A stretch of 18,346 bases of DNA, taken from Lachnospiraceae bacterium. Lineage in GTDB: Bacteria > Bacillota > Clostridia > Lachnospirales > Lachnospiraceae. This document shows positions 313-8,870 of the stretch, one piece after another. Position 1 is the stretch's first letter, and each line of letters starts with the position of its first letter. The stretch is taken from NCBI GenBank assembly GCA_014804495.1, contig JAAUZS010000065.1, positions 13,411 to 31,756 of the forward strand, read 5' to 3'. Below the pieces are notes generated by a model. That model searched no databases. It saw nothing but the letters and a program-made list of their open reading frames with translations, and had not been told where the DNA came from. A program made the translations under genes and the position numbers.

Positions 313-566
313 AATATTCTTATGTCAGAACTTGGAGCCAACTGGTAAGAAAAGATGTTCCATTGTCAGGATTTGGTGGTTGTACACTTGGTAATTTATA
401 TAAAGTAAATATAGATATTGGTGGTATTTTATATCCGAATATGCATATTATTGCAAACAATGATATAAATGCCACCTTTAATCTTATTTTGAGCTCGACT
501 ATGTTTGCGGGACTTATTTACCAGATTGATACGGTTAATCATGTGTTGAACGATTATTCAACATAA
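306..566 (+). pseudogene. Fragment resembling the C-terminal half of a retropepsin-like aspartyl protease
   Basis: A frame is open from base 306, inside the last codons of prfA, to the TAA at 564-566 (86 codons). It has no ATG at its beginning and no ribosome site; the first usable start would be TTG at 363. The product contains SGFGGCTLGNLYKVNIDIGG, then a stretch like NLILSSTMFAGLIYQIDT. This has the pattern of the second half of small bacterial retropepsin-like domains: a glycine-rich turn, an IG strand, and a hydrophobic 'LLG..fL....i.ID' end. The half that would carry the catalytic D-T/S-G motif is absent. I read it as a gene remnant joined to the 3' end of prfA by deletion. Family assignment is from pattern memory and is moderate at best. 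The alternative is a chance ORF or an unrelated small protein. Confidence 0.4.
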
Positions 567-572
567 AGTTGT

Positions 573-601
573 TTTACATTCGCAATATGGACATATATAA
601 T
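573..601 (+). promoter_or_regulatory. Promoter of the XRE-FlhA-like regulator gene
   Basis: TTTACA at 573-578 (5 of 6 to consensus) and a perfect TATAAT at 596-601 are separated by 17 bp. The start codon follows at 673, giving an untranslated leader of roughly 65 nt. A GGAGG ribosome site lies at 661-665, seven bases before the ATG. Confidence 0.75.
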
Positions 602-672
602 AGGGGATAAAGAGAAATATGTAAGCTCATTTATATTGTATCTGGAAATATTGGCGAATTGGAGGACTTTAT

Positions 673-1428
673 ATGGAAAATCAAATCGGAAACATAATCA
701 GTCAGTGCAGGCAGAATCGGAAAATGACGCAGGAAGAATTTGCATCAAGACTCGGAGTGACTCCGCAGGCGGTAAGTAAATGGGAACGTGGAATTGGGTT
801 ACCGGATATGATGCTGTTTGTTGACTTATGTCGATTGCTTGATGTGAGCGCAGACACCATTTTGGGATTAAAAACAAGTTCCATAGTAGAGAATAGCAGC
901 GTGGCTTTTGAGAGGGAAATCAGGGAAAATATTATTGCCGAACCGCTGCTTATTGAATTTGGGGAAGACATTATTCCATGCTTTAAAGTTGGACTTGAAA
1001 CAGATTATATCAATGAAAAACGTCGCAAACTTTCATCCGAATGTGGAATGTTGATACCGATTCTACATATTAGGGATAATGTGGAATTAGCTCCGAATGA
1101 GTATCAAATCAAGTGCTATGATAAAGTAATGATTAATAACAGGCTTGACATTGATAATTACAATAAGATGGCGGGCTTTGAACATATTATTGAACAAGTA
1201 TATGGACTATGCAGGGAACATTATGATGAGATATTAAATAAGGAGCTTGTAAAAACACTGGTTGACAATATTAAGGAACAGCATCCCGGAGTGGCTGACG
1301 ATCTGGTGCCGGAGAAAATAAGTTATTTGACGCTGGAAAAGCACTTGAAGGAAATTGTAAAGGATAAAGGAAATATAAGGGATTTTATCCATATTTTGGA
1401 AGATTTGGAATCAAAAAAAATTCTTTAA
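673..1428 (+). CDS. XRE-family regulator fused to an FlhA-like (FHIPEP) cytoplasmic domain
   Basis: 251 residues; the start is set by GGAGG at 661-665. Residues about 5-65 are a classic XRE helix-turn-helix (MTQEEFASRLGVTPQAVSKW, then PDMMLFVDLCRLLDV). Residues about 90-246 match, in order, the conserved blocks of the soluble domain of FlhA/FHIPEP type III export proteins: EPLLIEFG (90-97), the RRKL/ECGMLIP block (118-129), IRDN (133-136), PNEY (141-144), a helical stretch at 171-200 like the FlhA segment before LVDNIKEQHP (196-205), and GNIRDFIHILEDL (233-245). Relative to FlhA, about 50 residues of the middle appear missing (near 163-171), and the final FlhA subdomain and all membrane segments are absent. 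DNA binding is well supported; the FlhA-like part probably senses or oligomerises (inference). It is not a flagellar export gene: no other flagellar gene is in the window. A lipoprotein gene follows 75 bp downstream with its own promoter. Confidence 0.8.
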   Translation: MENQIGNIISQCRQNRKMTQEEFASRLGVTPQAVSKWERGIGLPDMMLFVDLCRLLDVSADTILGLKTSSIVENSSVAFEREIRENIIAEPLLIEFGEDIIPCFKVGLETDYINEKRRKLSSECGMLIPILHIRDNVELAPNEYQIKCYDKVMINNRLDIDNYNKMAGFEHIIEQVYGLCREHYDEILNKELVKTLVDNIKEQHPGVADDLVPEKISYLTLEKHLKEIVKDKGNIRDFIHILEDLESKKIL

Positions 1429-1503: not shown

Positions 1504-2172
1504 ATGAAAAGAAAATTTGCAATTATTTTAGCATGTATCATGGTAGTTGGAGTACTTGGAGGTTGTGGGAATTCATTTGATGCGTCAGCATATTTGAAGG
1601 CGTTACTGGATAATTCTTATAAGAATGATTCAAGCCAGCTGGTATCAATGAAAATCGCAACAGCTGAGGAAGCAGCAGAGATTTATGAGGAAGGTCTGGA
1701 CGCTGAGGTAAAAGAAATTGCTTCTGCAGCAGGTTCTCTTTCAGCAGAGCAGGAAGAGGAGTACAAAAAGGTATTTGCTGATGTTCTTGCTGGAGCTAAA
1801 TATACTGTTGGCGATGCTGAAAAGCAGGATGACGGTTCTTACGTAGTAACAGTAACTTATGAGCAGATGAATGTATTTGAGCCGGCTATGGTATCTTATA
1901 TGGATGCTGTCATTGCGCAGAGCACAGAATGGCAGAATGCAGCTCTTAACGGTGAAGCAGTTCCGTCTGATGATGAGATGATGGATTGGATTATCACGAC
2001 ATTGAAGGACAGCATTGCAGAATCTCTTAAGAGTGTAACTTATGATGAGCCTCAGACAGCTACAGTTAAAATCAGCATTGTAAATAATGTATGGACACCA
2101 AGTACAAGTGATCTTGCAAACTTGGAAGAAGTATTCTTTGATCTTGACGATGCATCTGCTGCATTACAGTAA
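1504..2172 (+). CDS. Putative secreted lipoprotein of unknown function
   Basis: 222 residues from the ATG at 1504, chosen because GGGAGG sits at 1488-1493 and because the product then begins with a clean lipoprotein signal: MKRK, a hydrophobic stretch at residues 5-18, and the lipobox LGGC with the lipidated Cys at residue 21. A longer frame from 1447 would add 19 residues with no ribosome site. The mature protein is acidic and rich in Ala, Glu and Asp, with a repeated helical pattern (residues about 45-90) and a strand-rich part carrying YTVGDAEKQDDGSYVVTVTY. It resembles the small DUF4854/DUF5105-like lipoproteins common in Lachnospiraceae, which have no known function; this is a resemblance, not a firm assignment. 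It would be anchored on the outer face of the membrane. It has its own promoter and is followed by a strong terminator, so it is a single-gene unit. Confidence 0.8.
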   Translation: MKRKFAIILACIMVVGVLGGCGNSFDASAYLKALLDNSYKNDSSQLVSMKIATAEEAAEIYEEGLDAEVKEIASAAGSLSAEQEEEYKKVFADVLAGAKYTVGDAEKQDDGSYVVTVTYEQMNVFEPAMVSYMDAVIAQSTEWQNAALNGEAVPSDDEMMDWIITTLKDSIAESLKSVTYDEPQTATVKISIVNNVWTPSTSDLANLEEVFFDLDDASAALQ

Positions 2173-3438: not shown

Positions 3439-4728
3439 GTGTTAGAGAGAAAAATATCGGAATATTTGAAAGAATGGAAACAGAAAGAGAAGAAAAAAGC
3501 GCTTCTTGTCACCGGCGCCAGACATACCGGTAAGACTTACAGTATACGTCGCTTTGGAAAGGAACAGTATACAAATCTTGTGGAGATCAATTTGCTTGAA
3601 AACAAGGCGGCAAGGGATATCTTTACGGATGTTTCGGATATTGGAGAACTTATTGCTAAGCTTACCGCTTACATAGGAAACAGTCTGAAATCCGGAAAGA
3701 CTTTGATTTTTCTGGATGAGATTCAGGCGTGTCCGAAGGCAAGAAACGCCGTTAAACTGTTCGCGGATGACGGAAGGTTTGACTGTATAGAAGCAGGTCA
3801 GCCTGAGTCTTCTTTTTATTATGAAGAAGTATATGAGATGTATCCCCTTGATTTGGAGGAATTCTTATGGGCGAATGGTATCAGGGGCGCCGATATAGAA
3901 TATGTAAAGGAATGCTACGATTTTAATATGAAAGTGAGCGGAAGCGTTCATGAAATGCTAAAAAGGCTTTTTAAGGCTTATGTCGCAGTGGGAGGAATGC
4001 CTGAGGCTGTTCAGTTGTTTGTGGATACACATGATATGGCGCAGGTAAAAGAAAAGCAGAAGAGCATTCTGGAACTTTTTATGCAGGATATTGAGAACTC
4101 CGAGAATAACGGAACAAACAGAGATAAGTCTAAAATGAAGAAAATAATGGAATTCATTCCGGCACAGCTAAATAAAGCTAATAAGCGGTTTATGCTGGCG
4201 GATATACGCAAAAGTGCGAGAATGGAGCGGTATGAACAATGCTTTGACAGATTGGCGGATACGGGAATGACGCTGCCCTGTTATAATGTGAGCGAACCGA
4301 AAGCCCCATTGAAGAACACCCAGAAGAATAATCTTTTCAAGCTGTATCTCGCGGATTCAGGGCTGCTATGCACTATGCTTCCTGAGAATGTTCAATTTGA
4401 AGTTTTACAAAATAATATTGAAATAAATAATGGTAGTATTCTGGAAAATGCATTGGCTCAAATTCTTACAGCTAACGGATTTGTGCTCAGGTATTATAAT
4501 GAAAAGAATAAGGGAGAACTGGATTTCCTGCTTCAGAAAGGCAAAGAAGCGATTCCTGTTGAGGTCAGGACGGGGGATTCTTATAAAGAGCATAGTGCGC
4601 TTGACTATGTGCTAAGTAAAAAAGAATGGAATCTAAAAGAGGGAATTGTTTTCTGCGACAGAAATGTGGAGAAAAACGGCGCAATCAGATACCTGCCGTG
4701 GTATATGAGTATGTTTTTACGGGAGTGA
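3439..4728 (+). CDS. AAA-type ATPase with DUF4143 (ATP-binding protein)
   Basis: 429 residues, GTG start supported by AAAGGTGG ending 7 bp before it. The N-terminal AAA_14-like ATPase has a Walker A GARHTGKT at residues 26-33 and Walker B LIFLDE at 89-94. The C-terminal DUF4143 part (about 200-429) includes GSILENALAQ, GELDFLL and PVEVRTG, the remnants of a PD-(D/E)xK nuclease fold in which the usual Lys of ExK is Arg. The usual GS sensor after the ATPase strand reads AGQ here. These proteins are widespread and frequent in clostridial genomes; their role is poorly known (defence or toxin-like functions have been suggested). It is cytoplasmic with no membrane segment. The response-regulator gene starts 33 bp downstream. 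Confidence 0.88.
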   Translation: MLERKISEYLKEWKQKEKKKALLVTGARHTGKTYSIRRFGKEQYTNLVEINLLENKAARDIFTDVSDIGELIAKLTAYIGNSLKSGKTLIFLDEIQACPKARNAVKLFADDGRFDCIEAGQPESSFYYEEVYEMYPLDLEEFLWANGIRGADIEYVKECYDFNMKVSGSVHEMLKRLFKAYVAVGGMPEAVQLFVDTHDMAQVKEKQKSILELFMQDIENSENNGTNRDKSKMKKIMEFIPAQLNKANKRFMLADIRKSARMERYEQCFDRLADTGMTLPCYNVSEPKAPLKNTQKNNLFKLYLADSGLLCTMLPENVQFEVLQNNIEINNGSILENALAQILTANGFVLRYYNEKNKGELDFLLQKGKEAIPVEVRTGDSYKEHSALDYVLSKKEWNLKEGIVFCDRNVEKNGAIRYLPWYMSMFLRE

Positions 4729-4761
4729 AAGATTGATATATCAGGGCAAAGGGAATAGCAT

Positions 4762-5457
4762 ATGAAGAAAAGAATCCTTATAATTGAAGATGATAATGAC
4801 TTGGCCGCAATCACAAGCGATATGCTGAAAAGTTACGGATATGATGTATGGATTGCCGGAAATTGTGAAGAAGCTTTTGATATCCTGACTGACAGACAGT
4901 TTGAGCTTCTGCTGATGGATATCAATCTGCCTGACGGCAGCGGATTCGACGTGTGTAAAGAGCTTCGTCTGTTATCAAAGGTGCCTGTCATTTTTGCCAG
5001 TGCAAGAACAAGTGAGGACGATAAAATTATGGGTCTGGATATGGGCGGCGATGATTATCTGGCAAAACCTTATTCTCTAAAGGAACTGCTGGCAAGAATC
5101 AATGCCCTTATTCGCAGGACATACGGTGAAGATGGCAGCTTGCCGGTTTATCGCTTCGGAGACATCAAAGTGGACGTAGGAGCGCGGATTGTAGAGCGCG
5201 GCGGTGAGGAAATAAAGCTGGCGCTGCGGGAATTTGACCTTTTGGCATATATGTGCGCACATCCGAATCGTACTATTACTAAAGAGGAGCTTCTTCACGA
5301 GGTATGGGGCGCGTTTTCGGAGGCAGAGACGGCAACCGTGGCAGTACATATCAGATGGCTTAGGGAGAAACTGGAGAAAGATGCGGCGAATCCTGAGTTC
5401 ATCAAGACAATATGGGGAAAAGGCTATCTTATGGCCGGTATTTGTGAAGAGGAATGA
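4762..5457 (+). CDS. OmpR/PhoB-family response regulator
   Basis: 231 residues, ATG with AAAGGGA about 7 bp upstream. The receiver domain (1-115) has the acidic pocket EDD (9-11), phospho-acceptor D53 in LMDINLPDGSG, the switch Ser in FASAR and the conserved Lys in LAKPYS. The C-terminal winged helix (about 130-228) has LREFDLLAYM, the TITKEELLHEVWG recognition region and VAVHIRWLREKLE, ending with IKTIWGKGYLM. It binds DNA as a phosphorylated dimer in the cytoplasm. The kinase gene starts 43 bp downstream and is the obvious partner. By analogy with the usual clostridial RR-HK-ATPase-permease cassette, its likely target is the ABC exporter at 10581-13954, now displaced by 3.9 kb (inference). 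Confidence 0.95.
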   Translation: MKKRILIIEDDNDLAAITSDMLKSYGYDVWIAGNCEEAFDILTDRQFELLLMDINLPDGSGFDVCKELRLLSKVPVIFASARTSEDDKIMGLDMGGDDYLAKPYSLKELLARINALIRRTYGEDGSLPVYRFGDIKVDVGARIVERGGEEIKLALREFDLLAYMCAHPNRTITKEELLHEVWGAFSEAETATVAVHIRWLREKLEKDAANPEFIKTIWGKGYLMAGICEEE

Positions 5458-6754: not shown

Positions 6755-6804
6755 AGTTTACTCGTTTAGTAACTTAATTATACAATAAATTTAGTTTGTG
6801 TCAA
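6755..6804 (-). promoter_or_regulatory. Consensus leftward promoter with dyad operator, no clear gene behind it
   Basis: On the minus strand TTGACA (6804-6799) and TATAAT (6782-6777), both perfect, are 16 bp apart. Directly after the -10 is an imperfect dyad at 6774-6755: AGTTACT and AGTTTACT-type arms around CGTTT, shaped like a repressor site. The -35 overlaps the last codons of the PBECR-like gene. Transcription would run into the 3' end of the kinase gene in antisense. No convincing ORF with a ribosome site follows. Confidence 0.6.
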
Positions 6805-7159
6805 GTCTTTTCAATGTGCCTTTTTCCAGATACCGTTCGGCATTGCAAGTGCTTAGTAAATGTAAAGTCTTTGCAAAGCACTTTCCCTCGGATGTAATTT
6901 TAACAGCTACACGTATGTATTCATCATCTATTTTGTACAGTTTTACAAAGAGAATGGAACCATCTTTTGGATTTATGCCCACATAATCGGGAAAATTTAT
7001 TATCATGCCAATATCTTTGTAATACTTGTCGTATTCGTATGGATGCCTGTTTTTGATATGTTCTATATTGGATTCGCCGATAAATACCGGGGTATTCGGT
7101 TCAATTTTTAAATCTAATCTATTAATAACAGATTGAGAAATATAACCAACTATTTCCAT
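6791..7159 (-). CDS. PBECR-type (barnase/EndoU/RelE-like fold) nuclease domain protein
   Basis: 122 residues, ATG at 7159 with AAAGGAACTG just upstream. The whole protein fits the small phage-associated PBECR nuclease pattern: VGYIS at the start, ESNIEHIKNRHPYEYDKYY (His-x5-His type block), MIINFPDYVGINPKDGSI, LFVKLYK, and IRVAVKI followed by CFAKTLHLL and a C-terminal YLEKGTLKRL. Such domains are RNase-like toxins or phage effectors; the catalytic role is inferred from family memory, and I cannot name the subfamily (PBECR2 or 3) with certainty. No antitoxin-like partner lies next to it on the same strand. A promoter lies about 180 bp upstream, leaving an unusually long leader. AT-rich composition fits an acquired gene. 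Confidence 0.65.
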   Translation of the reverse strand: MEIVGYISQSVINRLDLKIEPNTPVFIGESNIEHIKNRHPYEYDKYYKDIGMIINFPDYVGINPKDGSILFVKLYKIDDEYIRVAVKITSEGKCFAKTLHLLSTCNAERYLEKGTLKRLDTN

Positions 7160-8236: not shown

Positions 8237-8659
8237 CTATTCCTGTTTTTTCAAGTATTTCAGGATATTGTGGCACACGACAGCAAAACATAAACCTATG
8301 ATCATTCCTGCGGCGATAATTAACGCCATCTCACTATATCTGAATCTGTTTGCCGAAAAAGACCAAATACCCGCTATTGTTCCGCAAAAAAAGGCAAGAG
8401 CGATATATATTTTTATAATTGCCTTTTCATTGTCGTCACATTCTTCTTTCAAAATACGCTTAGTGTCATTACCTACCAATTCATCTATACTTTTATTAAG
8501 TGCACCGGATAGAAGTATTAATTGTTCAGGATTTGGCGAAGTTTCTCCTAACTCCCAGTTTGAAATGGTTTGTCTTGTGACATTTACTTTTTGGGCCAGT
8601 TGTTCTTGTGAAAAACCTTTTTCTTTTCTTAAAGTGTAAATATTTTTTCCTAATTCCAT
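8237..8659 (-). CDS. XRE-family transcriptional regulator with two membrane segments
   Basis: 140 residues from ATG 8659, chosen because AAGGAGG lies just upstream; a longer frame to 8749 would run through the promoter and operator. Residues about 3-62 are a strong XRE helix-turn-helix (IYTLRKEKGFSQEQLAQKVN, VTRQTISNWELGETSPNPEQ). After a charged linker (NDTKRILKEECDDNEKA) come two hydrophobic segments (about 81-103 and 110-133) and a basic tail. The architecture is that of small membrane-tethered clostridial repressors. It precedes the acyltransferase gene in the same operon. An inverted repeat around its -10 box points to autoregulation. Confidence 0.88.
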   Translation of the reverse strand: MELGKNIYTLRKEKGFSQEQLAQKVNVTRQTISNWELGETSPNPEQLILLSGALNKSIDELVGNDTKRILKEECDDNEKAIIKIYIALAFFCGTIAGIWSFSANRFRYSEMALIIAAGMIIGLCFAVVCHNILKYLKKQE

Positions 8660-8673
8660 TTTCCCGTACCTCC

Positions 8674-8711
8674 TTGCAAATAGTATAACTGATTTGGTAT
8701 TTGCAAAACAA
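8674..8711 (-). promoter_or_regulatory. Promoter and inverted-repeat operator of the XRE-acyltransferase operon
   Basis: Minus strand TTGTTT (8711-8706), 18 bp spacer, TATACT (8687-8682). Perfect 9-bp arms TTGCAAATA (8674-8682) and TATTTGCAA (8698-8706), 15 bp apart, enclose the -10 and touch the -35. A protein bound there would block RNA polymerase, so repression by the encoded XRE protein is the simplest reading. Confidence 0.65.
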
Positions 8712-8870
8712 CCAAACACTTTTGGAATCTGTGCAAAGAGTTTTAACATTCCTCATAATTATTAATTATGCTAAAATATAATACCACAATTATATATAGT
8801 TCTTAAAGACTTCTTAATAATTATTCTGATATCATATCTACGTGCGGTTACAGCATATAATTGGGGTCTG

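Follow-up and report, generated by a model that had tools for sequence, protein, structure and literature searches.

Why should a gene that joins a DNA-binding domain to a piece of the flagellar export gate lie in DNA where no flagellar gene is near, and what might its product regulate? We investigated one such gene in a Lachnospiraceae genome (G000). The window, meaning the whole stretch of DNA that was analysed, is 18,346 nt long, and no flagellar genes were found within it. In the product of the gene, an XRE DNA-binding domain is joined to a trimmed FlhA cytosolic domain that has kept D1 and D3 and lost D2 and D4. Its parts are as follows.

661..665, + strand: ribosome binding site GGAGG, read from the sequence
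673..1428, + strand: XRE-FlhAC fusion gene, 251 aa (open reading frame with profile and PDB-sequence matches)
673..870, + strand: XRE helix-turn-helix domain, residues 1-66
910..1143, + strand: FlhA D1-like part, residues 80-157 (profile and PDB matches)
1144..1164, + strand: short loop at the place of FlhA's D2, the chaperone-cleft subdomain (alignment with Lachnospiraceae-type FlhA; profile gap 411-444)
1165..1425, + strand: remaining D1 and D3-like part, residues 165-251 (profile and PDB matches)

The N-terminal domain matches HTH_3 over residues 9-61 (1.6e-14, 54.1 bits against a cut-off of 23), and two stretches after it match PF00771, FHIPEP (2.5e-21, 76.3 bits against a gathering cut-off of 29.1). 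The top matches among PDB sequences are FlhA cytosolic domains (3mix, 1.4e-17), and a profile of the fusion family's second domain finds 3mix at 1.3e-24. This domain has the FlhA D1/D3 fold. By full-length score the protein is not an FlhA, as it reaches 71.5 bits with the TIGR01398 equivalog, far below the cut-off of 772.1. The window DNA matches the FlhA profile at profile positions 322-410 and 445-533 of 657. The FlhA membrane domain is absent, as the profile match starts only at 322 and residues 1-66 are the helix-turn-helix. D2 with its chaperone cleft and D4 are absent as well (profile positions 411-444 and 534-657 without match, in agreement with the FlhA alignment), and the protein ends where D4 starts in FlhA. 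The earlier note, made from the letters alone, had read 673..1428 as an XRE domain fused to an FlhA-like domain without the middle piece, the last subdomain or the membrane part. Both the fusion and the three gaps are borne out, and the comparison with PF00771 and FlhA-C that the note had proposed came out above the cut-off, with FlhA cytosolic domains as the best PDB sequences.

We next consider which functional sites of FlhA remain, with FlhA residue numbering transferred by us onto an alignment of 15 fusion rows. In FlhA, the docking site of FliT-FliD and FliS-FliC is the D1/D2 cleft with Asp456 and Leu461 (PMC5932034, partial text); this chaperone cleft is missing from the window's fusion because D2 is absent. 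FliJ contacts the FlhA linker and the cleft between D4 domains (PMC8166844, partial text), and D4, part of this published binding cleft, is absent too. The D1 and D3 surfaces of FlhA are touched by the linker of the neighbouring subunit (PMC8166844, partial text), a ring contact also described in PMC8213127 (partial text). At the position of Trp-354, the ring-linker tryptophan, the window has R84 and only 2 of the 15 rows have W, so this tryptophan is not conserved in the fusion family; the position of Asp-356 is N86, invariant across the 15 rows. Gly-368 belongs to the GYXLI switch motif of FlhA (PMC9431611, partial text). It aligns with G97, a glycine in 15/15 rows, and the L413 position is retained in 14/15. 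With G97 kept and D2 and D4 lost, the fusion preserves the core fold and the hinge glycine, but not the docking surfaces.

The gene is part of a regulator family made from an export-gate piece that is real, widespread and often mislabelled. The protein database holds 611 fusion homologues at E<=1e-20, and all of the 120 matches listed (of 611) contain PF00771 together with an HTH family. Five of these 120 are named, four of them as "FHIPEP family type III secretion protein" or "flagellar biosynthesis component FlhA"; one matching database row bears the label Gastranaerophilales. Within the genus, short frames with the FlhA-type domain occur in 16 of 77 genomes, one copy having 94% identity in its FlhA-type part. 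In named genomes, 40 loci that encode the FlhA-type domain were located. The titles of 35 are Lachnospiraceae or its genera (Roseburia, Butyrivibrio, Acetatifactor, Lachnoclostridium, Anaerocolumna, Anaerosporobacter, Mobilitalea), and the remaining five are Clostridia bacterium (2), Ruminococcus sp., Clostridium sp. and bacterium. Of 397 genomes sampled from the family Lachnospiraceae, 17 have the fusion among the matches listed, a count made by hand that may miss split or weak copies. We also looked for carriers outside the family by searching 391 genomes sampled from the class (E<=1e-16). Beyond G000 there were only three matches, two in FlhA-length frames and one of 315 aa, and on this sample carriers outside the family were rejected. 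In a tree of 80 rows, with a weak backbone and long branches meeting, FlhA is set apart at 100/100 on a very long branch (2.65 changes per column), and three fusion forms that retain D2 cluster together (98/95). Taken together, the sequence, the model and this large conserved family support the note's proposal that the FlhA fold was recruited into a DNA-binding regulator.

Damaged copies occur in the family sample: the copy in G249 is interrupted by internal stops, that in G424 is a fragment, and in G121 a portion of D1 is missing. Defective copies, whether broken, fragmentary or with internal deletions, are seen at loci L135 (G249), L145 (G424), L070, L075 and L225 near 4615-4900, and the L225 remnant still has the full operator described below.

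Comparison of the regions upstream of the fusion genes revealed a putative operator, which does not figure in the earlier note, at the fusion's own promoter.

545..562, + strand: putative operator, upstream dyad GTTGA-N8-TCAAC (pattern match G000:C65:13955-13981; consensus of 31 relatives)
559..571, + strand: putative operator, core dyad CAAC-N5-GTTG adjoining the -35 (comparison of fusion upstream regions)
573..601, + strand: predicted promoter TTTACA-17-TATAAT, 11/12 consensus matches (position conserved in relatives)

The half-sites in the window lie at 545-549, 558-562 and 568-571, and the majority pattern upstream of relatives is GTTKA-N8-TNAAC-N5-GTTG[TC]TTTACA-N17-TATNAT. We used 53 loci (57 less four duplicates, near-copies still included), and 732 other genes of >=100 aa from the same loci served as controls. 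The motif GTTG[TC]TTTAC lies <=220 nt upstream of 31/53 fusion genes and 0/732 other genes. For the bare dyad CAACN5GTTG within the same distance the counts are 21/53 against 10/732, and for a relaxed operator pattern 33/53 against 2/732, one of these two control sites (L071 9842-9866) being located between a fusion gene and a divergent gene. A matrix was built from the 31 seed sites, whose own scores are in-sample, so that it is tested by the other 22 genes only; 11 of these 22 exceed 11.9 bits, the top score among 245 shuffled sequences. Overall, the operator is found at 42 of the 53 fusion genes (31 by pattern and 11 by matrix). The 11 genes that do not reach the threshold include the D2-retaining forms, whose operator has another layout with the same core: in each of the four, a pair of CAAC-N5-GTTG-type dyads lies exactly 27 bp apart, and two of these genes carry one mismatch in the second dyad. 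A putative operator at the fusion's own -35 is thus conserved in sequence, and the comparison gives good support to autoregulation: the fusion protein likely controls its own promoter. Repression, not activation, is suggested by the site lying at the -35 of a near-consensus promoter.

Upstream of L126, L127, L128 and L044, operator-like sequences with low matrix scores have half-sites that, by eye, seem shifted by one base. The intergenic dyads at L071 and L072 may also serve the divergent neighbours, a GH25 gene (L071, Pfam) and a LacI-sensor/GGDEF-like gene (L072, by eye).

We then looked for further targets. Across 52 carrier genomes there are 38 sites with the full operator pattern. Sorted by hand, 15 of them belong to the fusion gene, one precedes an HTH-only remnant of such a gene (in G472) and 22 lie elsewhere. 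Further full-operator targets in these 52 genomes were rejected, since the 22 sites elsewhere compare with 26 for the reversed pattern and show no excess over background. In G000 itself, the sole exact CAACN5GTTGYTTTAC site is the fusion's own promoter. Allowing <=2 mismatches gives 56 sites against 35 for the reversed pattern, and given this excess some weaker targets may exist in G000. We also scored flagellar upstream regions in 20 carrier genomes, all 20 with flagellin-domain matches, of which 30 of 130 were fetched. None of the regions upstream of 19 flgB genes (maximum 3.8 bits) or of the 30 flagellin genes (maximum 8.0 bits) scored above shuffles. On these scores we rejected the idea that the operator directly governs flgB or flagellin operons, and with 0/19 and 0/30 regions above shuffles no flagellar regulon is shown.

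A conserved partner gene was likewise rejected, as gene neighbourhoods are common to close clades only. The gene downstream in the window (1504-2172) encodes a predicted lipoprotein and is otherwise a neighbour only in a sister genome; a promoter-like TTGACA-17-TATCTT at 1437-1465 lies just behind the fusion gene and ahead of the lipoprotein gene. The short, D2-less forms have scattered, non-flagellar neighbourhoods. Three of the four D2-retaining relatives adjoin flagellar genes: in G507 and G508 the distance between the fusion and a flgN-like gene is 87 and 46 bp, and after the flgN-like gene come fliS, fliD, flaG and fliW, and in the third it adjoins a FliD_C-type gene. These D2-retaining forms fail to align at the key residues of the chaperone cleft.

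Elsewhere the window encodes a small protein that contains a phage-type nuclease domain, PBECR3 (6791-7159, - strand; 2.5e-20), and another XRE protein, which has a hydrophobic C-terminal half but does not match FHIPEP (8237-8749, - strand). At L051 and L130, other XRE genes lie on both flanks of the fusion in the same direction.

FlhA is present in 40/40 named carriers; 38 have it at full length, and in the other two it is truncated by contig ends. It is also present in 16/16 carriers of the genus set, which overlaps with the named-carrier set and is uninformative on association because 75 of 77 genomes of the genus match FlhA anyway. In the family sample, among the matches listed, FliP occurs in 16/17 carriers against 190/380 other genomes (Fisher p 1.9e-4) and FlhA in 15/17 against 194/380 (p 1.9e-3), p-values that are indicative only, as the genomes do not form independent samples and neither their size nor common descent was corrected for. 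For FlhA, 12 of the 15 carriers were seen as rows and three inferred from the match number, and in the other genomes every match was taken as FlhA; G347, without an FlhA match but with FliP, was counted as flagellated. The exception, G249, is 76% complete, lacks both FlhA and FliP, and is the genome whose fusion copy has internal stops. The flagellated carriers in this sample, among the matches listed, are spread over 16 genera, and the fusion is absent from many flagellated genomes. The tie of the fusion to flagella is good but correlative. The note's remark that the segment has no flagellar genes holds for the window, yet it masks a connection: nearly all carriers are flagellated, and three of the four D2-retaining relatives sit beside flagellar genes.

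The reading we prefer, and to which we give about even weight, predicts that the fusion represses its own promoter through the conserved operator and responds to the flagellar export machinery. XRE subunits would bind the half-sites GTTKA, TNAAC and GTTG, and binding would block RNA polymerase because the GTTG half-site adjoins the -35. The FlhA-type core would join subunits and make DNA binding cooperative. DNA binding would then be altered when the protein touches the FlhA ring itself or some component of flagellar export, and the level of the regulator would follow the assembly state of the flagellum. A tentative extension is that the protein is a DNA-bound offshoot of the export gate, in which a soluble D1-D3 core on a transcription factor would read the state of gate or chaperones in the cytosol and feed it back to expression. 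On this view the form that still has D2 and lies next to fliS, fliD and a flgN-like gene would be ancestral and would sense chaperones, and the window's type would have arisen from it by trimming.

Several other explanations need to be weighed against this autorepressor tied to flagellar export. That the gene is a chance fusion or an assembly artefact could be suspected from the 182 contigs of the G000 assembly, and is practically ruled out by the 611 homologues, the 94% identical copy in a second genome and the conserved operator. It is possible, if rather doubtful, that the FlhA-type part is a structural dimerisation or oligomerisation module only, unconnected with flagella, the co-occurrence reflecting common descent in motile Lachnospiraceae. 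The loss of chaperone cleft, D4 and membrane part, the scattered neighbourhoods, the flgB and flagellin upstream regions without operator, and the length of the FlhA branch all fit a mere module. The carrier statistics do not, with 16 of 17 carriers (among the matches listed) flagellated against half of the others, across many genera and with a decayed exception, nor does the position of three of the four D2-retaining forms next to flagellar genes.

The sign of the autoregulation could also be the opposite. With its core dyad directly upstream of the -35, centred near -42, and the -10 left uncovered, the operator would suit a class II activator, as exemplified by lambda CI at PRM. We regard this as on the unlikely side, since a promoter with 11/12 consensus matches and 17-bp spacing should need no activator. 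Much less probable is a soluble decoy that inserts into or caps the FlhA ring, with DNA binding serving autoregulation only: D1 and D3 are the surfaces met by the neighbouring subunit's linker in FlhA (PMC8166844, partial text) and every named carrier has FlhA, but the linker tryptophan is not kept and a decoy has no need of an XRE domain.

The fusion shows which half of FlhA's cytosolic domain is able to live alone, and a family of this size named as FHIPEP or FlhA can inflate counts of export gates. A search of the open literature by title and start of abstract (subscription journals mostly outside) gave no description of an XRE-FlhA fusion among the matches listed, in line with the note's suggestion of an undescribed regulator class.

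Compared with the FlhA cytosolic domain (PF00771; TIGR01398), the fusion has the same D1 and D3 fold, Gly-368 and L413 position. It differs in having an N-terminal DNA-binding domain and no membrane domain, D2 or D4, in its length (251 aa against ~685 aa for FlhA frames of the genus) and, for the window's gene, in its location away from flagellar genes. Second domains of XRE regulators include peptidase, TPR, cupin and SinR-type modules. Unlike the XRE/HTH_3 one-component regulators of the ImmR, P22 c2 and SinR type, the fusion has a second domain derived from the export gate. FlgM-FliA and FliT-FlhDC are flagellar checkpoint regulators in which export state feeds back to transcription, and the known flagellar checkpoints rely on chaperones and anti-sigma factors that are secreted or set free. 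The fusion shares with these two systems the idea that export state acts on transcription. It would differ from them in that, if our reading is right, the regulator itself bears a piece of the gate, and a regulator built from the gate itself would be another checkpoint logic.
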